Shown here in pieces: positions 35,127-45,882 of a stretch of DNA of 64,000 nucleotides (its first letter is position 1; each line of letters opens with the position of its first letter). The position numbers and the translations under genes were made by a program. The stretch covers positions 62,001 through 126,000 of the forward strand of contig NZ_QMDW01000007.1 of assembly GCF_003605635.1 (NCBI RefSeq). The letters are read 5' to 3'. The notes under the pieces are model-generated. The model ran no database searches. It was not told the DNA's origin and saw only the letters and a list, made by a program, of their open reading frames with translations. The DNA is from Halonotius pteroides. Its GTDB lineage: Archaea; Halobacteriota; Halobacteria; Halobacteriales; Haloferacaceae.

Positions 35127-37163
35127 ATGCCGACCCCCGACCGCCCCGAACCGATCGATCCCGACACGGCAGCCCGCGACACGTCGATCGCTGCTGGTCT
35201 GCTCGCTCGCCTGCGTCAGGTTACCCGCGCGCTTCGTGGCTCAACGTTCGACCGCCACCCCGACGAGCCCGCCGCCGCTGACCCGCTGGCGACGTTTACT
35301 GTCCCTGACGACGAGCAGGAACTCGACCGCTACTGGGTGAACCGACCGTTTGCCTTCGTTGTCATCACCGAGCACGACGCCGACGGCGACCGGTCGTACT
35401 ACGCCGTCGAACCGGATCTCGATGCCTTCGAGGTCGACCTGCTTGACCGTGTCCGCCGTGACATCCGCGCGCCGCTGATATACGATGCCGGCGACGACGC
35501 TTCAGCCGAACCACAAGCCAACGCCGCGACCGACGCCAGCGACGAGTTGGCTGTTGAGCACGACATCGGGGCAACGGCCACATCTGCCGATCGAATCGAT
35601 GCCGACATCGATCCCGATGCCGGCCGTATCGGCGAAGCTGCCGAAACGGATGCCGGTCTCGACGATACAGCCGCTGAGACTGTTGCTAGTCGTGTTGCTG
35701 ACAAGGGCGACGCCGACGATGCTGACACCGACGCTGCCGAGCGACTGCGCACCGAACTTGCCGGGCTGATCGAGCGATACGGGATCACCGTCGACAGCCG
35801 GACGTTTCACGCGCTGTGGTACTACTTGCACCGTGATTTCCGTGGGTATGGCCGACTTGATCCGTTGCTACAGGATGACCACATCGAGGATATCTCCTGT
35901 GATGGCCCCGACCATCCGGTCTTCATCTACCACGAGACCTACACCGACCTCGAAACCAACGTTACCTTCGAGACGGCCGCACTCGACGATTTCGTCGTCC
36001 GACTGGCCCAACAAGCCGGCCACCACATCAGCGTTGGCGAGCCACTCATCGAGGCAACGTTGCCGGACGGCTCGCGGGCGGAGCTCAGCCTCGGCGAGGA
36101 GGTCACGCCACACGGATCGGCGTTTACCATCCGACAGTACGCTGCCGACCCGCTCACACCGATCGATCTCATTGAGCGCGGGACGTTTGACGCCGCTGGG
36201 TTGGCCTACTGCTGGCTCTGTATCGAGCACAACAAGAGTCTGCTGGTGGCTGGTGGCACCGCCGCTGGGAAAACCACCACACTGAACGCGCTATCGATGT
36301 TCGTGCCACCAGGCGCAAAGGTCGTCACCATCGAAGACACCCGGGAACTCACGCTCGCCCACGACAACTGGTTAGCGGCGGTCACCCGAGAGCAACTGAC
36401 TGAAGGAACCGCCATCGGTATGTACGACCTCCTGCGATCGGCTCTCCGACATCGCCCGGAGTATCTGCTTGTCGGCGAGGTGCGCGGCGAGGAGGCCAAA
36501 ACGCTGTTTCAGGCGATGAACACCGGCCACACGACGCTGTCGACGATTCACGCCGACTCTATCGAGACCGCTGTCACCCGGCTGGAAAACGAGCCGATCG
36601 ATCTTCCGCGGACGATGGTCGAGTCGCTGGATCTGTGTGCCGTCCAAACCCAACGACGCCTTGGGGGCCGGCGTGTCCGACGGATCGATGGGATCGCCGA
36701 GATTCGTGGCATCGACGACCGCACGGGCGATCTTGATTACGCTGAACCCATCTCATGGCACCCACAAAGCGACAGTTTCAGCCGATCACACAGCGAGGTG
36801 TTGGAATCGATTCAGACCGAACGCGGCTGGGATCCCGACGATCTGCGAGCGGAGCTTGCTGCTCGCAAACAGTTCCTCAACACGCTGTTGGAGCGCGGCG
36901 TGACCGACTACCGCGAGTTCACCGCACAACTCCGGGCCTATGACGCCGACGCTGCTGACGCCGACCGTCAGGCTGACCAGCCGCCGTCCGCGACGAAGAC
37001 GAACAGCCAATCCGCAACCGCGTCGCCACCGGGTGCGTCCGCTGGCGATGGCTCGGCGTCAACGACCAGAACTACTGTTGATGAGTCGGTATCGGACGAT
37101 GACACCATCGACCAGCGCGCCGGCGTTGTCTCGTCGATCACGGGGAGCTGGTCATCCCGATGA
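35127..37163 (+). CDS. PilB/TadA-type secretion ATPase
   Basis: A 678-residue ATPase of the type II/IV secretion family that powers pilus assembly. An N-terminal region of 240 residues is unusually Asp/Ala/Thr-rich (about 120-205 is a low-complexity acidic insertion). The catalytic core starts near residue 230. Walker A is VAGGTAAGKTTTLNAL near residue 372 and Walker B with the aspartate-box is LLVGEVRGEEAKTL near 446. An acidic tail follows. Overlaps the membrane platform gene by ATGA. Confidence 0.88.
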   Translation: MPTPDRPEPIDPDTAARDTSIAAGLLARLRQVTRALRGSTFDRHPDEPAAADPLATFTVPDDEQELDRYWVNRPFAFVVITEHDADGDRSYYAVEPDLDAFEVDLLDRVRRDIRAPLIYDAGDDASAEPQANAATDASDELAVEHDIGATATSADRIDADIDPDAGRIGEAAETDAGLDDTAAETVASRVADKGDADDADTDAAERLRTELAGLIERYGITVDSRTFHALWYYLHRDFRGYGRLDPLLQDDHIEDISCDGPDHPVFIYHETYTDLETNVTFETAALDDFVVRLAQQAGHHISVGEPLIEATLPDGSRAELSLGEEVTPHGSAFTIRQYAADPLTPIDLIERGTFDAAGLAYCWLCIEHNKSLLVAGGTAAGKTTTLNALSMFVPPGAKVVTIEDTRELTLAHDNWLAAVTREQLTEGTAIGMYDLLRSALRHRPEYLLVGEVRGEEAKTLFQAMNTGHTTLSTIHADSIETAVTRLENEPIDLPRTMVESLDLCAVQTQRRLGGRRVRRIDGIAEIRGIDDRTGDLDYAEPISWHPQSDSFSRSHSEVLESIQTERGWDPDDLRAELAARKQFLNTLLERGVTDYREFTAQLRAYDADAADADRQADQPPSATKTNSQSATASPPGASAGDGSASTTRTTVDESVSDDDTIDQRAGVVSSITGSWSSR

Positions 37164-39211
37164 GTGCTCCAACCCGATTGATCGATTACCACCGCTGGCT
37201 CCGCCGTATTGCGACGATCCGATCGATCGGGGTTCGACTGCGTTGCGGCGTTGATGCCATCGCGCTCGCGTGGTGTCGCCCACTTGTCCCAGCGACTGGT
37301 CGGCGTGAGCGCAACACACAGTTGGCTGCGATCCACGCCGACGACCCGCCTCGGCTTATCGCCGCTCGAATCATGCTCTACGCTCTCACCGCCGGTATCG
37401 CTGCCGGAATGCTCACGCTCGTGACGATCCTCCGGATTCGAGCCGAGCCCGCGGTGGTGACAGCGCTCACCGGGCGAATCGGGATCAATACGCTCACGGC
37501 GTCACCGGTATCGGCGGCCACCCTCGCGGCCGGCTGTAGCGTTCTCGTCGCTGTCGCAGTCACGGCAGTAACCTACCGAGTTCAGTGGGTGCTGATCGAT
37601 CGGCGTGTGGCCGCCCGTGAGCGACGGATCGACCGGACGTTGCCGCGGGCTGTCGCGTGCATGTACGCACTCGCCCGAAGTGGGATGCCGTTGCCAGCGG
37701 TGTTGCGAACCGTGGCTGCCCACCGAAACGTCTACGGTGAAACCGCCGTCGCCATCGGTGTGACTGTCCGTGAGATCGATCACTTTGGGGTAGACGTGAT
37801 CACTGCCCTTGAGACGACAAGCGACCGTACACCGTCGGCTTCGTTCGCCGAGTTCACCTCGGATCTTGCCGCGGCTGTCGACAGCGGCCACCCGGTCGAC
37901 GACTACCTCCGGCGATACCACGAGCGATCCCGTGAGGCTGCTGCCGACAGCCAGCAAGGCTTTCTCACCCACCTTTCGACCGCCGCTGAGGGCTATGTGA
38001 CAGGGCTGGTCGTCGGGCCGTTGTTCGTGGTGACAACGCTGGTTGTCGTTGGGCTCGTTGTCACCGATACAGTACCAGTATTGCGTGCTGTCATCTTCGG
38101 GTTCGTTCCGATCGGGACGGTTGGGTTCCTCCTCGGGCTTGACCGGCTGCTTGCGAGCCATCGACTCCCCGTAGCGACCCACAACAACGGCCGGTCTTCG
38201 TATCGATCTGTCGACCCTCCTGGTGCTCACGCCACGATCCGGCCGATGGGATCGTCTCGGGACTGGAGCCACCAGCGATCGATACTTCGGATCGCGGATC
38301 GGCTATCGCGGTGGCGTCGCTGGCTGCGGCGGCCAATCGCAACGCTTGGGAGCAATCCGTGGCTGACGCTGCTGGCAACCGCGCCACTCGGGGTGGGGTG
38401 GATTTATCTCGCTACCGAGCCGCCGCGGCTTTCGATGGCGACGCTCTCAACAGCCACCCGGCCGCTTTCGATCGCATTGATCGGTATCTGTAGCAGCTAC
38501 GCGGCCGCCTACGAGGCTGGTGCCGCCCGCCGTCGCCGACTTGCGGCTGCCGTGCCGGTGTTCCTTGACCGGCTTGCCGACGTCAACGAGGCTGGCCTTT
38601 CGGTCGTCGATGGCCTCGACCGGGTGGCCAACGGTGATCTCGGCGCGCTCTCGGAACCACTTGCTCGGGTTCGGCGTGATGTTCGGTGGGGTGCCGACGT
38701 GACAAACGCGTTCCGGCGGCTGGCCTCCCGGGTTCGATCACCGCCAGTTACCGGTGCTGTCGCCTTGGTTACCAACGCCTTGCGTGCCAGCAACCGGATC
38801 GGCCCGGTCGCCGCCATCGCCGCTGCGGAACTCCGAGCCAGCCAGCGACTCGCCGCCCGTCGCCGGCGGGCGATGGCAACGTATCTTGTCGTGATCTACA
38901 TCGCCTTCCTGGTCTTTATCGGGATTATCGCCGCCCTTTCGGCGTCGTTTTTCCCCGCAGTCGAGACCGCTGTCACCGGGTCGACCGGCGGGCTGTCGAC
39001 CACTGGCGTCACAGAGACCGGCATGGCTCGTGCCGGCGGTATCACACCTAACATCGATGCCTACGAGACACTCCTCGTACAGCTCACGATGATTCAGGCC
39101 ATCTGCTCCGGCCTCGTCGCTGGTCGACTCGGTGAGGGTGAGTTGCGGGCTGGCGTCAAACATGTCGTGGTGTTGCTGATGATCTCGCAGGCCGTCTGGT
39201 GGTTCATCTGA
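37160..39211 (+). CDS. PilC/GspF-type pilus assembly platform protein
   Basis: A 683-residue integral membrane protein. It contains two GspF-like cytoplasmic domains (for example RRIDRTLPRAVACMYALARSGMP in the first and RRLAAAVPVFLDRLADVNEAGL in the second) separated by transmembrane segments. There is a hydrophobic region near residue 70 and a cluster of helices at the C-terminus (VVIYIAFLVFIGIIAALSAS). It is the inner-membrane anchor for the PilB ATPase. No pilin or prepilin peptidase gene is beside them except the archaellin-like gene 650 bp downstream. Confidence 0.85.
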   Translation: MSAPTRLIDYHRWLRRIATIRSIGVRLRCGVDAIALAWCRPLVPATGRRERNTQLAAIHADDPPRLIAARIMLYALTAGIAAGMLTLVTILRIRAEPAVVTALTGRIGINTLTASPVSAATLAAGCSVLVAVAVTAVTYRVQWVLIDRRVAARERRIDRTLPRAVACMYALARSGMPLPAVLRTVAAHRNVYGETAVAIGVTVREIDHFGVDVITALETTSDRTPSASFAEFTSDLAAAVDSGHPVDDYLRRYHERSREAAADSQQGFLTHLSTAAEGYVTGLVVGPLFVVTTLVVVGLVVTDTVPVLRAVIFGFVPIGTVGFLLGLDRLLASHRLPVATHNNGRSSYRSVDPPGAHATIRPMGSSRDWSHQRSILRIADRLSRWRRWLRRPIATLGSNPWLTLLATAPLGVGWIYLATEPPRLSMATLSTATRPLSIALIGICSSYAAAYEAGAARRRRLAAAVPVFLDRLADVNEAGLSVVDGLDRVANGDLGALSEPLARVRRDVRWGADVTNAFRRLASRVRSPPVTGAVALVTNALRASNRIGPVAAIAAAELRASQRLAARRRRAMATYLVVIYIAFLVFIGIIAALSASFFPAVETAVTGSTGGLSTTGVTETGMARAGGITPNIDAYETLLVQLTMIQAICSGLVAGRLGEGELRAGVKHVVVLLMISQAVWWFI

Positions 39212-39247
39212 GTGCGTCTCAGGTTGTGTCGTCGTTGGCGTGACACG

Positions 39248-39724
39248 CTACAGTGTGGTGAGCAACACGCCACCCAGCAGGATGGCGATCCCGAGTACAA
39301 CCTTGGTGATCGCTGTGGCTGTCTGGGGATCGGCGATGAGAAACGAGTGTGCCGGATCATCCGGGTCGTAGTAGACGGTTGTTTGGGTGCCGGGCTCGTA
39401 GTCGTTGATCGCTGTTTCGGCGGCGGCTTCCGTTCCGAACAGCTTGGCGAACCGGTGCTTCCCGGGATAGACAGTGTTGCCGTCGCGTCGTTCTGTCGGC
39501 GTCCGGTACTCGTAGTCGACGACGGGCAGATACTCCTGTGTGCCAGCCGCCTCCTTGACCATCTGTATGTCCACCTGTTGTACGGTTCCGGTTGTCTCGA
39601 CGGCCCGCCGGCTGATCGCTCGCAACCGCCGGTATCGCCGGATGCCGATCCCGGTGAGAACCACGCCACCACCGACGGCGACGACAGCGAGTATATCAAG
39701 CAGCCCAAGCGTCGAACCGATCAT
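39248..39724 (-). CDS. DUF3592 domain membrane protein
   Basis: A 158-residue protein with a hydrophobic N-terminus (residues 8-27) and C-terminus (residues 136-155) flanking a beta-rich domain containing DYEYRTPTERRDGNTVYPG and the motif YYDPDDPAHSFL, typical of DUF3592. Function unknown. Confidence 0.75.
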   Translation of the reverse strand: MIGSTLGLLDILAVVAVGGGVVLTGIGIRRYRRLRAISRRAVETTGTVQQVDIQMVKEAAGTQEYLPVVDYEYRTPTERRDGNTVYPGKHRFAKLFGTEAAAETAINDYEPGTQTTVYYDPDDPAHSFLIADPQTATAITKVVLGIAILLGGVLLTTL

Positions 39725-39866
39725 ACCATCTATCGGGTATGACGCTATTTAAAAACCCGATCGCACACCGGCTGTAGAATCAGCGAGTGGCCCCACAGCG
39801 ACGGTTGCAGGTGTGGCACACGTACACTTATTTTATCCCAATCACAATGTTGACTTAGCGGTTACC

Positions 39867-40454
39867 ATGTTCAGCACTGGTTCGCGCGGACAAGTAGGAA
39901 CAGGTACACTCATCGTCTTCATCTCGGTGGTGCTCGTCGCGGGGGCAGCCGCGGGAGTTATCACCAACACAGCGGGGTTTCTACAGTTTGACTCCACGGA
40001 GACGAGCGAGAGCAGTACAGCGGAGGTCAGCGATCGGCTTGCGGTCGCATACTCGATCGGCGTCGTCGACAGCGACAGCGCCGAGACTGAACTCCAACAG
40101 CTAGAGCTCATCGTGGGGCCAGCCCCCGATGCGACGGCGATCGATCTCGATAACACAACGGTGCAGTATCAAAGCCCTGACCGAGCGACAACGCTCGTCA
40201 GCGATGGGGCCAACGGTAGCGAACCAACGTTCCGCGTTGAGCCGCTTCAGGGTGATACCGATGATAACGTCCTCAGCGATCCGACCGACCGATCAAAGCT
40301 TGTCATCCCGCTTAATGACGAGACAACAGCGTTGGAGCCGCTTCAGCGCGGGGAGGGGGTCACGGTCACGCTGACAACCGCAAGCGGTGCCACAACGCAG
40401 GTTCAGCACACGGTTCCGCCGGTTGATCCCAATGACAGAGCCGTCAGGCTCTGA
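39867..40454 (+). CDS. Archaellin-like filament protein
   Basis: A 195-residue archaellin paralogue. After MFSTGS comes the class III signal RGQVGTGTLIVFISVVLVAG, cut by the prepilin peptidase before the mature N-terminus; the body is a Thr/Ser/Asp-rich beta domain with the archaellin-type end GEGVTVTLTTASGATTQV. It is unlinked to any archaellum operon, as is the copy at 363-938. The TATA box ACTTATTTTATC (39827-39838) lies about 35 nt upstream. Whether it is assembled by the archaellum machinery or by the upstream PilB/PilC pair is unknown. Confidence 0.82.
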   Translation: MFSTGSRGQVGTGTLIVFISVVLVAGAAAGVITNTAGFLQFDSTETSESSTAEVSDRLAVAYSIGVVDSDSAETELQQLELIVGPAPDATAIDLDNTTVQYQSPDRATTLVSDGANGSEPTFRVEPLQGDTDDNVLSDPTDRSKLVIPLNDETTALEPLQRGEGVTVTLTTASGATTQVQHTVPPVDPNDRAVRL

Positions 40455-41352: not shown

Positions 41353-41368
41353 GTGACGATTACTAGAG
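41353..41368 (+). promoter_or_regulatory. Regulatory element GTGAC-GA-TTACTAGAG upstream of the kinase
   Basis: GTGACGATTACTAGAG matches GTGACGATAGCTAGAG (44861-44876) at 14 of 16 positions. It lies 7-8 nt upstream of the TATA box GCTTATATC (41375-41383), where an activator could contact the basal factors. Confidence 0.55.
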
Positions 41369-41374
41369 GGTGAG

Positions 41375-41383
41375 GCTTATATC
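41375..41383 (+). promoter_or_regulatory. TATA box of the sensor kinase gene
   Basis: GCTTATATC, centred about 26 nt upstream of the ATG of the leader ORF at 41405. Confidence 0.55.
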
Positions 41384-41404
41384 AGGGAATAACCACGACG
41401 AGGT

Positions 41405-41488
41405 ATGCACGTGTTCACCCCACCGTCAAATACCATGCATGCTGGATTGCAGCCACACCAACCCCCAGTTGACGAGCAGCGTCGCTAA
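41405..41488 (+). CDS. 27-codon leader ORF before the sensor kinase
   Basis: ATG at 41405, the position predicted for leaderless transcription from the TATA box; TAA at 41486-41488. The kinase ATG begins 5 nt later. The peptide starts MHVFTPPSNTMHAG and is Gln/Pro/His-rich. In-frame alternatives for the kinase start (41439) would overlap it. Confidence 0.35.
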   Translation: MHVFTPPSNTMHAGLQPHQPPVDEQRR

Positions 41489-41492
41489 GGGG

Positions 41493-42521
41493 ATGGACGA
41501 GTCCACCGACGTACCTGAGTCGACACCGATCCCCCCGGATGCCCTCCCAGTTCCGGTCGTTGGCATCGACCACAAAGACGCCGAGGCCATCATCACGAGC
41601 GAAAACGACGCCTTTGAGGCGACGTTTGGCGATGCCGTCGGCACACCAGCCACCGCGTGGGTTGACAGCCACGTCGCGCCGACAGCGGCTGACACCACAG
41701 CGGCTGTAGCTGTCCTCCGGGGCGACCGCGCCAGCGATACCACCCTCAGGCTAACATCGTCTGTCGAAGCTGAGCCAACCTGCTACCGACTCCAGCCGAT
41801 TGCAGTGTCGGCCGACCGGCCGGTGTACACGCTGTTGACCCCGGCTGACTCAGCATGTACCGTCGAGGTTGATCGGCTGGCCAGCGTCATCAGCCACGAC
41901 CTCCGAAACCCGCTGGATGTCGCCGCCGCCCACCTCCAGGCCGCCCGTGAGACGGGTGATCCCGAACACTTCGAGCAGCTGACCGCGGCCCACGACCGGA
42001 TGGAACGCATCATTCAGGATGTGCTCACGCTCGCTCGCGGCGAGGACGCAGTTACCTCGGTTGCTGGGATCGACCTCGGGGCTGTTGCTGCCGACGCGTG
42101 GGCAACCGTTGATACCGAGACCACGTCGTTGTCGGTCGCCGACGATCTGCCGACGCTTGCGGCCGACCGCGACCGCCTCCAACGACTGTTTGAAAATCTG
42201 TTTCGAAACAGTGTCGAACACGGTTCAACGAGCACTCGATCGCAGTCTACCGATGCTACCAACGAGACCCTTACCGTCACCGTCGGCCGCGACGGCAACG
42301 GCTTCTTCGTTGCCGACGATGGAGCCGGGATTCCGGTCGCCGACCGCGAGCAGGTCTTTGAGTCCGGCTACGTTCGCGACGATAGCGGCCACACGACGGG
42401 GTTGGGGTTGACGATCGTCGAGGAGATCGCTGAGGCCCACGAGTGGGAGATCTCTCTGACCGACAGCGACGCCGGCGGTGCACGCTTCGAGTTCCATCCA
42501 TGTGAGTCGTCAACCACATGA
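41493..42521 (+). CDS. Sensor histidine kinase
   Basis: A 342-residue cytosolic kinase. The N-terminal 110 residues look like a small PAS-like sensor (VVGIDHKDAEAIITSENDA). H-box SVISHDLRNPLDVAAAHLQ lies near residue 130, N-box FENLFRNSVEHGS near 235, and G-boxes DDGAGIPV and TTGLGLTIV follow. No transmembrane segment. Starts at 41493, after the leader ORF; an ATG at 41439 gives 18 more residues. First gene of the signalling cluster; a Bat-like regulator follows by 36 bp. Confidence 0.85.
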   Translation: MDESTDVPESTPIPPDALPVPVVGIDHKDAEAIITSENDAFEATFGDAVGTPATAWVDSHVAPTAADTTAAVAVLRGDRASDTTLRLTSSVEAEPTCYRLQPIAVSADRPVYTLLTPADSACTVEVDRLASVISHDLRNPLDVAAAHLQAARETGDPEHFEQLTAAHDRMERIIQDVLTLARGEDAVTSVAGIDLGAVAADAWATVDTETTSLSVADDLPTLAADRDRLQRLFENLFRNSVEHGSTSTRSQSTDATNETLTVTVGRDGNGFFVADDGAGIPVADREQVFESGYVRDDSGHTTGLGLTIVEEIAEAHEWEISLTDSDAGGARFEFHPCESSTT

Positions 42522-42557
42522 GCCCACACGTTGTACAGCCGACAACCCCCCGTCCGC

Positions 42558-44207
42558 ATGAATGAGGCATTGGCGACCGCCCCGGTCGGTGTGATCGAGG
42601 CGACACGTGACGGCGAGATTACCGCGATCAACGAGCGGGCAGCAACGCTGACCGAAACCGAGCCTGATGCCGTCGTCGGCGAGTCGCTGTCGGCCGGATT
42701 TCCGACCGCTGCCACCGACCATCTCGGTGATGTGGTCGACGACGAGCCAACGGCGACCGCCTTCGAGGAGTATTACCCCCGTATCGATCGCTGGCTCGCT
42801 GTCGACGTACAGGTCGACGATGGCCTCCGGCTGTTTCTGCGTGAGACCACCGAGACCCACGAGCTCAAACGGCGTGTCGACCGCCTCGACCGCCGGCTCG
42901 ATCGCGTCCAGCGAATCGACGCGCTGATCGTCCGTGTGCTCCAGCAGGTGCTTGGCGCGGCTGACCGCGAGGAGATCGCCACATCCGTCTGTGACCACCT
43001 TGGCGGGGCCGACCGCTACGATTTCGTCTGGGTTGGCGACCGAGAGTTCCAAACCGATAGCCTTCGGGTTGTTGCCGCCGCGGGAACCGCCCCGGAGCTC
43101 CGCGACCGGATCGATACCGCTCTCGGCGAGCCGGACAGCCTGCCGGGGCAACGCGCCGTCGACGCCGGCGAGACGCAGGTGATCGACGCCTTCGCCGATG
43201 ACACGTCGGTTCCGCGAGCGGTTCGGCAGGCGGCGTTCGCCAGCGGCTTGCAGTCCTGTCTGGCGGTGCCGCTGCAGTATCAGGAGACGGTCTACGGCGT
43301 CGTCTCGGTGTATGCCAGCCAGGTCGATGGGTTCAGCGAGCAGGAGCGCGCCGGCCTCGAAACGCTCGGCCGTGCCGCTGGCTTTGCGATCCGTGCGATC
43401 CGACAGGAGGATCTGCTCGTCGCTGACACCGTCACCGAGGTGACGCTCTCGGTCTCCGGTGGCTCGATCCCGCTCAATCAGGCCGCTGCCGCGACCGACA
43501 CAACGTTCTCGCTGGTGGGGGCTGTCCCCCGCGGCGACGGCCCGGTTGTGTGTTATGTTGCGCCGGATGATACCGTCGCCAACGCTGCGGCCAGCGACGA
43601 TGCTGACACAACCGCCGACGATTCGGCCCCTACCGACGGCGAACCCGTCGCCGGCGATGAGCCACTCACACCGGAGCTGATCGAACGGACGCTTCACGAC
43701 CACGAGCAGGTCGTGGCTGTGTCATGGATCCGTATCGGCGACGACCCGCTCGTACAGGTCACGGTCGACGGCAAGACACCGGTGACCGCGCTCACCTCGT
43801 GGGGGGCGTCGATCCGGTCGGCAACCTATCGCGGTGGGTCGACACGGATCATCGCCGACGCGCCGCCGGCAGAGAGTGTCCGACAGCTGATCGAAACCGT
43901 CGACGAGACGGTCGCCGAGACCGACCTCCTCGCAAAGGAGGCAACCACACCCAGCCAAGAGCCGGTCGCAGCGTTCCAAAACGAGCTGGCTGAGCGGCTG
44001 ACCGACCGTCAACAGGCCGTCCTCCGGGCAGCCTACCTGGCCGACTACTTTGAATCACCGCGCGGCAGTACCGCCGCTGAAGTCGCCGACAGCCTCGATA
44101 TCGCGGGGCCGACGCTGTTGTACCATCTTCGGCGTGCCGAGCGAAAGCTGGTGGCGGCGTTTCTGGCAGCCGATCCGACGACCCCGGCCGGCGACACCGA
44201 TCAGTAG
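42558..44207 (+). CDS. Bat-like transcription regulator (PAS-GAF-HTH)
   Basis: A 549-residue protein with domains as in the haloarchaeal bacterioopsin activator Bat: a PAS-like N-terminal segment (residues 1-95), a coiled linker (98-120), GAF (125-275, with CLAVPLQYQETVYGVVSVYA), a Bat-type middle region (290-440) and a C-terminal HTH_10-type helix-turn-helix (490-540, LTDRQQAVLRAAYLADYF then a probable recognition helix TLLYHLRRAERKL). It probably senses a small molecule or redox state and regulates nearby genes. Its 3' end overlaps HalX by 7 bp on the other strand. Confidence 0.85.
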   Translation: MNEALATAPVGVIEATRDGEITAINERAATLTETEPDAVVGESLSAGFPTAATDHLGDVVDDEPTATAFEEYYPRIDRWLAVDVQVDDGLRLFLRETTETHELKRRVDRLDRRLDRVQRIDALIVRVLQQVLGAADREEIATSVCDHLGGADRYDFVWVGDREFQTDSLRVVAAAGTAPELRDRIDTALGEPDSLPGQRAVDAGETQVIDAFADDTSVPRAVRQAAFASGLQSCLAVPLQYQETVYGVVSVYASQVDGFSEQERAGLETLGRAAGFAIRAIRQEDLLVADTVTEVTLSVSGGSIPLNQAAAATDTTFSLVGAVPRGDGPVVCYVAPDDTVANAAASDDADTTADDSAPTDGEPVAGDEPLTPELIERTLHDHEQVVAVSWIRIGDDPLVQVTVDGKTPVTALTSWGASIRSATYRGGSTRIIADAPPAESVRQLIETVDETVAETDLLAKEATTPSQEPVAAFQNELAERLTDRQQAVLRAAYLADYFESPRGSTAAEVADSLDIAGPTLLYHLRRAERKLVAAFLAADPTTPAGDTDQ

Positions 44208-44782
44208 CCTTCCCTGTCGATTCCGTCAAACGTTGACAGCAGTGTGTCAGCCTCGGGAAGGAGGTCACGAACACGCTGTTTTGCCGTTTCGAGATCGGCT
44301 TCGATCGCGGCGAGTCGCTCGTCGGCGTCGGTGGCTGCGGTGGCGTCGGCGGCAAGGACAGCCCGGGTTGATTCACGCCGGAAATACTCACCGAGGAGCT
44401 CGTAGGCCAGTACCTGACACTGTTGATCGACAGCCGCATACAGATCCGGGCGGTCGACCGGCTTCGAGAGATAGTCGTCGAACGGCATCTCAACGATGCC
44501 GAGGTCGGGGTCGATGGCGGTCACCATGATCACCCGCGTCGTCAGGTCGCGCTCACGGAGCTCGTCGAGCACCGCATCGCCGGATAGCCCCGGCATGTGG
44601 CGATCCAAGAGCACGACATCCGGTGGGCGGCCCTCAGCAACAATCGCCAGCGCTTCCTCGCCGCCGTAGGCGACGGTCACGTCGGCGACATCCTGCAGGC
44701 GTAACGCGTAGGCGTCGGCAACCTGCTTTTCATCGTCGACCATGAGCACCCGTGGTTCGTCGACGTGGAGGCCCTCACCCAT
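44201..44782 (-). CDS. HalX-type response regulator
   Basis: A 193-residue protein. The receiver domain covers residues 8-125: acidic pocket VDDE, phospho-acceptor Asp in LLDRHMPG (near residue 60), Thr in MVTA (near 88) and Lys in SKPV (near 110). A C-terminal HalX domain follows (residues 130-190, a helical region of unknown function). No DNA-binding domain. Partner kinase is likely in the cluster. The TATA-like GGTATTAG lies about 30 nt upstream. Confidence 0.85.
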   Translation of the reverse strand: MGEGLHVDEPRVLMVDDEKQVADAYALRLQDVADVTVAYGGEEALAIVAEGRPPDVVLLDRHMPGLSGDAVLDELRERDLTTRVIMVTAIDPDLGIVEMPFDDYLSKPVDRPDLYAAVDQQCQVLAYELLGEYFRRESTRAVLAADATAATDADERLAAIEADLETAKQRVRDLLPEADTLLSTFDGIDREGY

Positions 44783-44824
44783 TGATAGATAGTGAGGCGG
44801 CACCGTACTAATACCCGGTGGACG

Positions 44825-44930
44825 GTGACACCGATATACTGTGGTGTTGTCACCAATCGAGTGACGATAGCTAGAGCAACGTGTACAGAATGGTTGTGAC
44901 TGGTAGCTAGCCGCTATAGCTGGCTGTCAC
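44825..44930. promoter_or_regulatory. Cluster of five GTGAC boxes in a divergent promoter
   Basis: GTGAC occurs at 44825-44829, 44861-44865 and 44896-44900, and its complement GTCAC at 44849-44853 and 44926-44930. Three copies extend to GTGAC-(2-4 nt)-TAGCTA. The last one overlaps the TATA box CTATAGC (44914-44920) of the downstream regulator gene. The spacing (36, 35 and 30 nt, plus inverted copies) suggests a dimer array. Confidence 0.6.
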
Positions 44931-44948
44931 TCCAACAGGTAGGTATCG

Positions 44949-45317
44949 ATGTCAACGACCCAGCAATCTCACCGTGGCGTGGTTCAGTCAGCCGCGGCCA
45001 CCACCGAGAAAACGCGGCGAGCAGCTACTGCTGTTGAGACGGATGCCGTGCTTGAGCTGTTGAGCGACGAGTACGCCCGTCAGGTGCTCGAATCGTTGTG
45101 TGACCGACCCGCTACAGCACCCGCGCTTGTGGAGTCGATGGCGGCCTCACGGGCGACGGTCTACCGCCGACTCAACGACCTCGAAGCCGCCGGCCTTATT
45201 GCACCTGCTGTCGCCGTCGATCCCGACGGTCACCACCGCAAACGCTATCATCTCATCGTCGATGACCTCCAACTCCAGTTCGGGGCCGACGGCATCGAGA
45301 TCACCCTCGTCGACTAA
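44949..45317 (+). CDS. Winged-helix transcription regulator (copy A)
   Basis: A 122-residue DNA-binding protein. A winged helix spans residues 30-90 (LLSDEYARQVLESLCDRPA, recognition helix SRATVYRRLNDLEAAGLI) followed by a beta-hairpin wing (VDPDGHHRKRYHLIVDD). It pairs with the paralogue at 45460. The GTGAC array lies directly upstream and overlaps its TATA box, suggesting autoregulation. Confidence 0.8.
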   Translation: MSTTQQSHRGVVQSAAATTEKTRRAATAVETDAVLELLSDEYARQVLESLCDRPATAPALVESMAASRATVYRRLNDLEAAGLIAPAVAVDPDGHHRKRYHLIVDDLQLQFGADGIEITLVD

Positions 45318-45407
45318 CTCCAGCGGGTAATATCGACTGCGTCGTCGCCTGTCATCGTCGCCGACTTCGTTGCTACCATCGTTGCTGCATAGAAGTTGAA
45401 CGCTCTG

Positions 45408-45422
45408 TATAGCTAGTGTCAC
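45408..45422 (+). promoter_or_regulatory. GTGAC-type element at the copy B promoter
   Basis: TATAGCTAGTGTCAC (reverse complement GTGACACTAGCTATA) matches TATAGCTGGCTGTCAC upstream of copy A. Both overlap a TATA-like sequence about 30-50 nt upstream of the start. Confidence 0.5.
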
Positions 45423-45459
45423 ATTTGCTGTGGGGTTGTAGATAGAAGCCCCATGACGG

Positions 45460-45882
45460 ATGTCCCGGGCGTTCGATAATACTACCACGATGGTGACCTC
45501 ACCCCCAACGCTGCCGCCGTCTCAGGAGTCAGCAGCCGATGACCGCTCGGTCGACACCGAGCAGTTGCTCACGTTGCTTGGCGATGAGTATTCCCGCGCG
45601 ATCATCGACGCCCTCGGTACCGAATCGCTGCCAGCCCGCGAGATCGCCGCCCGCACCGATATCTCCCGACCGACCGTCTACCGGCGTCTTGATCGCCTGA
45701 AAGACGCTGGGGTGGTCGAACCAACGATGACGGTCGATCCCGACGGTCACCACCGGCAGGCGTTTGCGGTCGTGATCGATGGGGTTGAACTCAGTCTTGG
45801 TGACACAGCAGCAACACCGGCTGCGTCGAGCACAGACACAGCATCACCGATCACGCTGTCAGTGCGGTCAGACTCGACCTGA
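45460..45882 (+). CDS. Winged-helix transcription regulator (copy B)
   Basis: A 140-residue paralogue of copy A. The winged helix covers residues 36-95 (LLGDEYSRAIIDALGTESL, recognition helix SRPTVYRRLDRLKDAGVV), then VDPDGHHRQAFAVVIDG and an acidic/Thr-rich tail. An in-frame ATG at 45490 would shorten it by 10 residues. The 144 bp before it include the shared GTGAC element, so it probably has its own promoter. Confidence 0.8.
   Translation: MSRAFDNTTTMVTSPPTLPPSQESAADDRSVDTEQLLTLLGDEYSRAIIDALGTESLPAREIAARTDISRPTVYRRLDRLKDAGVVEPTMTVDPDGHHRQAFAVVIDGVELSLGDTAATPAASSTDTASPITLSVRSDST

Follow-up and report, generated by a model that had tools for sequence, protein, structure and literature searches.

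We uncovered a short directional promoter element, widely conserved in haloarchaea and built around a CTAG core, that recurs upstream of the genes of a signaling module featuring a histidine kinase, a Bat-like regulator and small winged-helix (wH) proteins. Judging from sequence comparisons, its copies most likely function as an upstream activating element, with the Bat-like protein of the module as its probable reader. The prototype analyzed here lies in a window of 64,000 nucleotides of Halonotius pteroides DNA, in which domain searches of the 41.3–45.9 kb region recovered the kinase, the Bat-like protein, a divergently transcribed REC-HalX protein and two small wH proteins, wH1 and wH2 (Table 1). 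The Bat-like protein combines GAF, BAT and HTH_10 domains (PF15915, 1.1e-27; PF04967, 1.9e-16; GAF_2, 2.2e-14) and so has the domains of a Bat-type regulator; at E 0.01 no N-terminal Response_reg receiver was detected in it, the only match being a weak one to PAS. According to a census of archaeal two-component systems, some Bat-like proteins have a highly diverged receiver or another domain in its place (PMC5847659). With its start at 45490, wh2 has the distal core of the element at −82, as against −83 in wh1; the alternative ATG at 45460, which is missing in the same-genus genome G002, would place it at −52. This suggests that the wh2 start should be corrected to 45490.

Table 1. Genes of the module and features of their promoters, in positions of the window
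Feature	Position	Strand	Basis or remark
Sensor histidine kinase (HisKA, HATPase_c)	41493..42521	+	start inferred
Bat-like regulator (PAS, GAF, BAT, HTH_10), proposed binder	42531..44207	+	domain matches
REC-HalX response regulator	44201..44782	-	domain matches
wh1, small wH regulator, 122 aa	44949..45317	+	reading frame, domain match
wh2, wH regulator, 130 aa from the start at 45490	45490..45882	+	start inferred from comparison
Single element copy of the kinase-bat promoter, GTGACGATTACTAGAG	41353..41368	+	kept in G003 and G002; GGATAGCTAGATGG in G001; same position in other genera
TATA-like CTTATAT of the kinase promoter	41376..41382	+	conserved as CTTACA/CTAAG; sequence reading
Conserved TATA-like sequence of halX, TATTAGTA	44803..44812	-	sequence comparison
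Distal element copy of the wh1 promoter, GTGACGATAGCTAGAG	44861..44876	+	GAT 83 bp before the wh1 ATG
Proximal element copy of the wh1 promoter, GTGACTGGTAGCTAG	44896..44910	+	conservation
TATA-like CTATAGC of wh1	44913..44919	+	CTATAGC/GTATAGC kept in five genomes; source of the supposed inverted copy
Distal element copy of the wh2 promoter, TCTGTATAGCTAGT	45404..45417	+	one mismatch to the family consensus; forward
Proximal degenerate copy of the wh2 promoter, GATAGAAGC	45441..45449	+	GATAGAAGC/TACTAGAAGC kept in G000, G003 and G002

Two further features of the neighborhood deserve mention. A 27-codon open frame (41405–41489, + strand), which may be a leader ORF, begins 42 bp past the CTAG of the kinase element and stops just before the kinase ATG; G003 has a similar frame and G002 one of comparable length, and the matching region of G001 is in frame with the kinase. 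The module is also adjoined by genes for a type IV filament ATPase, membrane proteins and an archaellin/pilin-like protein (window 35127–40454), and in G356 arlI/arlJ-like matches likewise occur downstream of it.

HalX orthologs were recovered at E ≤ 1e-45 in 67 of 383 genomes, and we compared 70 loci with a HalX gene, namely 63 fetched for this comparison, the window and six obtained earlier; most span about 10 kb and some are cut by contig ends. They define the consensus TCTGnATAnCTAG(A/C), always in the direction of transcription, with one copy upstream of the kinase-bat operon and two copies upstream of the small wH genes, usually 32 bp apart, at about −83 and −51 relative to the start codon. 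We collected 101 wH genes, 78 of them from module loci, own-genome paralogs or bat loci and 23 from elsewhere; with four rows dropped, 74 module wH genes, 62 of them outside Halonotius, entered the count of the strict core DATWRCTAG. This core was found in the forward direction at −120 to −25 before 39 of the 74 (29 of the 62 outside Halonotius) and before none of the 23 wH genes outside the module. On the opposite strand it occurs before none of the 74, none of the 62 and none of 53 kinase genes. Its background outside module genes (10 occurrences in 410,445 bp, both strands) corresponds to about 0.07 expected in the 62. Even the bare CTAG is present in the same interval before 64 of 74 module wH genes versus three of 23 others. 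Paired CTAGs are 32 bp apart in 20 of 37 cases and 31–33 bp apart in 27, the distal core sits at −79 to −87 from the start in 28 of 73 module wH rows, and the CTAG of the proximal copy falls at −36 to −52 in 34 of the 73. The wH rows of G041 and G124 (of another subfamily or cut) were left out of the strict-core, spacing and wH recognition-helix counts; rows under 90 aa and G004, with two wH in one frame, were left out of the wH tree and the helix comparison, and the wh2 row of G004 also out of the spacing count. Some observations here count against our preferred reading: non-Halonotius kinase upstreams show the strict core in only 16 of 49 cases (any CTAG, 26 of 49), and the Halonotius copies are the least consensus-like. 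The HalX gene is not the target of the element and lies beside it, not under it, because wH genes that have moved away from halX take the element along (G142, G186, G429 and G176).

Some loci depart from this pattern. The g14 genomes G173, G041 and G321 (two genes) have replaced CTAG by TTAG, TGAG or TAAG, with TCTG still at −83 and −51; in the loci L333, L334, L335, L345, L286 (G013) and L064 it is replaced by TTAG, TGAG or GTCTGCATACGCAGAC with GATACTGG, the spacing being kept. Such replacements in some genomes of the same family suggest drift of the element. In L227 (G240), kin is preceded at a distance of 1.65 kb (about 573–2224 of the oriented locus) by an intact kinase-type promoter, which is followed by an apparent insertion-sequence end; a mobile element may have separated this promoter from the gene. 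The Haloferax loci L090 and L102 have no wH or bat match and no element.

The earlier note had described these sites as the motif GTGAC-N(2-4)-TAGCTA, in direct and inverted copies. All five sequences are indeed present and clustered, and a single non-coding cis-element is common to the kinase promoter and both wH promoters; the Bat-like protein and the wH pair are sensible candidates for binding it. What did not hold up is that motif as the functional unit. It is matched exactly at 44861, 44896 and 45410 (− strand), three occurrences against a shuffled-window expectation of 0.00, and not at the other two sites, where the kinase site has TTACTA and the 44915–44930 copy CAGCTA in place of TAGCTA. 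A genome-wide search with the strict motif revealed no enrichment (six matches in 3.0 Mb versus 12 for the reversed control), though this control is not a fair one, as it holds the common GATC, whereas CTAG is rare (614 versus 20 in the window). Three of the six matches fall within 560 bp at this cluster; the others (C22:20024/20032 and C33:24089) are without the architecture of the element and were set aside.

Footprinting against four same-genus genomes (G001–G004; the window's genome is G000), all of which carry the cluster, with no kinase match in the G004 stretch, indicates that it is [GT]AT[AT][AG]CTAG, not GTGAC, that is conserved in them and in other genera. The kinase promoter keeps GATTACTAGAG in G000, G003 and G002 and has GATAGCTAGA in G001; the halX-wh1 interval keeps GATAGCTAGA in G000, G003 and G001, with variants in G002 and G004; and the wh2 promoter reads TCTGTATAGCTAGA in G003 and G002 and TCTGTATAACTAGA in G001. 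The GTGAC arm is kept only in G000, G003 and G002, with TCTGn or other sequences elsewhere, and is just the Halonotius version of TCTGn; nor is the variable spacing supported. The supposed inverted copy at 44915–44930 is mainly the TATA region of wh1, with the TATA-like sequence retained in all five genomes and the GTCAC arm not, and the site at 45408 is conserved when read forward, as TCTGTATAGCTAG. In the five genomes GATWRCTAGAG occurs seven times, five of them in module promoters, one upstream of a wH paralog (C33:15050) and one inside a reading frame (G003 C14). The looser KATWRCTAGM has 48 sites, and the promoters of the kinase, halX/wh1 and wh2 turn up among them in one genome after another; in the 30 loci inspected no other promoter was seen to do so. 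Two near-identical wH paralogs of G000 (C33:15203 and C40:23052; L046 and L047) differ in that the two-copy promoter is kept at C33 and has lost its CTAG at C40 (GATGAATAGAG).

In the window alone, the family consensus with three mismatches is not above chance (20 found, 31.6 expected), so that the case rests on conservation and position. Across 16 genomes, the full form TCTGnATAnCTAGM has 22 matches versus six for the reversed control, and each of the 22 stands before a gene of its own orientation, coding for the kinase (seven), wH proteins (10), wHTH proteins of another type (two, in G235 and G248), an MMPL transporter (one, beside bat in G028) or a MacB-type transporter (two, in G256); these genomes were picked for carrying the module, and the figure is thus no estimate for haloarchaea at large. 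Two of the 16 (G064 and G061) have no full-form match. The bare 11-mer KATWRCTAGAG has matches in 220 of 391 genomes and is by itself near background, as 28 of the 30 loci examined, out of more than 150 listed places, have no module-gene match and the other two only a weak bat or arlI-like one; five further listed places, outside these 30, lie 120–140 bp upstream of halX orthologs.

The earlier note read overlap with TATA at the wH promoters as fitting repression and saw a fit to activation at the kinase. In the loci examined, the copies are found upstream of TATA at wH and kinase genes alike, and the TATA-like sequences downstream of the proximal copy are often poor (CCAGTA, ATACAGG, CTATAGC). 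This placement beside a weak TATA box would suit activation, not repression; copies upstream of TATA, in a single orientation and about three helical turns apart, would likewise fit an activator. We infer the following path. The element would control the kinase-bat operon through one copy and the small wH genes through two copies on the same face of the helix, ending just upstream of the weak TATA of a leaderless promoter. The Bat-like HTH_10 protein would bind it and activate transcription, in the manner of Bat at the bop upstream activating sequence (UAS). A signal arriving via the kinase, and perhaps HalX too, would activate Bat; activated Bat would switch on its own operon together with wh1 and wh2, whose products would then regulate the outputs.

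Bat is the likeliest reader because the element persists where no module-type wH gene is found, precedes wHTH genes with a different helix, and shares its CTAG core and position with the Bat UAS. The first situation is seen in G097, whose kinase promoter carries CTCTGCATAGCTAGAATCCACCACTAAG and whose best wH match (E 8.5e-27) is without the element, though an undetected wHTH is possible there. The second is seen in G064, G235 and G248, where the element precedes a gene for a wHTH with the helix S(I/V)QNV instead of SRxT. Its occurrence before the MMPL and MacB transporter genes also supports Bat. The Bat recognition helix, nearly invariant in 55 loci, was counted for Bat; the wH recognition helices are also well conserved, and helix conservation hence does not decide the binder. 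Points against Bat are the flanks of the element, which differ from those of the bop UAS, and the Halorhabdus-type genomes, in which bat lies outside the kin operon and no copy of the element is found within 1.5 kb of bat.

The main rival is that wH1 and wH2 bind the element themselves, auto- and cross-regulating their own genes and the kinase-bat operon, with TCT-N8-AGA as the half-sites of a dimer. We consider this unlikely, though several observations speak for it. The element follows the wH subfamily onto other contigs, being present at 10 of the 14 best hits (11 with a variant counted; E ≤ 5e-34 or 2.8e-33 and better; three of the 14 are also among the 70 loci) and at none of 16 weaker paralogs, and the promoters of wH genes show it in a more regular form than those of kin. 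Module-type wH genes that have moved elsewhere retain it, as autoregulation would likewise predict. Moreover, the available text on CsmR, a small haloarchaeal wHTH protein of similar size, reports binding to a 14-bp semi-palindrome, TATCA(N4)TGATA, beside TATA (PMC13286277). A wH tree with few alignment columns, in which the 23 non-module wH proteins need five label changes, does not separate the two readings. Against self-binding by the wH proteins stand the kinase promoter of G097 and the copies before different-helix wHTH and transporter genes; further, all copies face one way, unlike a simple symmetrical operator, and none of these sites contains the CsmR consensus. With up to two mismatches this consensus has no match between 39.1 and 47.6 kb; in the window as a whole (1–64000) it has 17 matches versus 7.3 expected, none near the module.

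That another factor reads the element, be it HalX, an alternative TFB or some regulator whose gene lies elsewhere, strikes us as improbable. A basal factor could explain the fixed distance to TATA, but TFB/BRE contact would not extend to the distal copy at about −76, and the element is restricted to module genes and a few others. HalX, for its part, belongs to the same module; the 2018 census states that it has no documented function and no tested DNA binding, and deems its domain only possibly HTH-forming (PMC5847659). Chance, whereby the avoidance of CTAG in coding DNA would let a few intergenic copies mimic a motif, could appeal to the rarity of CTAG (20 in 64 kb), the lack of genome-wide enrichment of the strict GTGAC pattern and the chance-level count of the consensus in the window, but is already disfavored to the point of being very improbable, as a chance motif would show both orientations and no spacing rule, whereas here both are fixed, the pattern recurs across families and none of the 23 non-module wH upstreams has it.

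To our knowledge, few archaeal cis-elements have been tied to a two-component system. The present one is short, reads in one direction and obeys a spacing rule, and its specificity allows targets to be listed by genome search alone; what Bat-like and HalX proteins regulate could thereby be tested directly on a single promoter with two or three proteins. We would give even chances to the broader proposal that the module (kinase, Bat-like HTH_10 activator, HalX and one or two small wHTH proteins) sets up a regulon of its own by way of a directional direct-repeat UAS with three-turn (32 bp) spacing. The outputs would be a wHTH repertoire and occasional MMPL or MacB exporters, and the output gene could be swapped, from an SRxT wH to an SxQNV wHTH, with the element and Bat unchanged.

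Among characterized systems, the HVO_1356/HVO_1357/HVO_1358 set of Haloferax volcanii resembles the module in having a histidine kinase beside a Bat-type HTH_10 regulator, a receiver protein and a HalX domain, and the Bat-type protein HVO_1357 gives hypermotility when hit, according to the portion of the report available (PMC7824242). HVO_1357 differs in carrying the receiver and HalX on the Bat protein itself, and that portion describes neither a wH pair nor a motif. CsmR (HVO_1209) resembles wH1 and wH2 in size and in an operator near TATA; its operator sequence differs from the element, and the accessible text does not place it in a kinase-Bat-HalX cluster (PMC13286277). No description of the element appeared among the open-access papers listed in our literature searches.

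In the bop regulon of Halobacterium, the Bat UAS has the consensus ACYnnACTAGTTnGG. Its flanks, ACC..TTnGG, differ from the TCTGnAT..A/C (AGA/AGC) of our element, and are not found at the element sites, which read TCTGnATAnCTAGA/C. A search for the Bat UAS gave matches in 76 of 372 genomes; two of 30 loci examined precede bacteriorhodopsin genes, and most of the others are without an obvious nearby ORF. In G000 a bacteriorhodopsin-like gene (C22; L385 622–1362, − strand) is preceded by the Bat-UAS-like ACCAGACTAGTTAGG, with CTAG 51 bp before the start, which is conserved in G003. Both elements have a CTAG core about 50 bp before the start, just upstream of TATA: at −36 to −52 in the proximal copies described here, and at −49 to −51 in the bop-type UAS of bacteriorhodopsin genes (L307 and L323; L385 and L386 in Halonotius). 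Both also go with a regulator combining BAT and HTH_10 and occur before that regulator's own gene, Bat controlling its own gene in Halobacterium as far as the available text relates (PMC1502140). The present element differs from the bop UAS in being asymmetrical and often duplicated at 32 bp, and in its targets, which are kinase-bat operons, wHTH genes and transporters in place of opsin and carotenoid genes. By analogy, then, it would work like the bop UAS, but we do not classify it as one.
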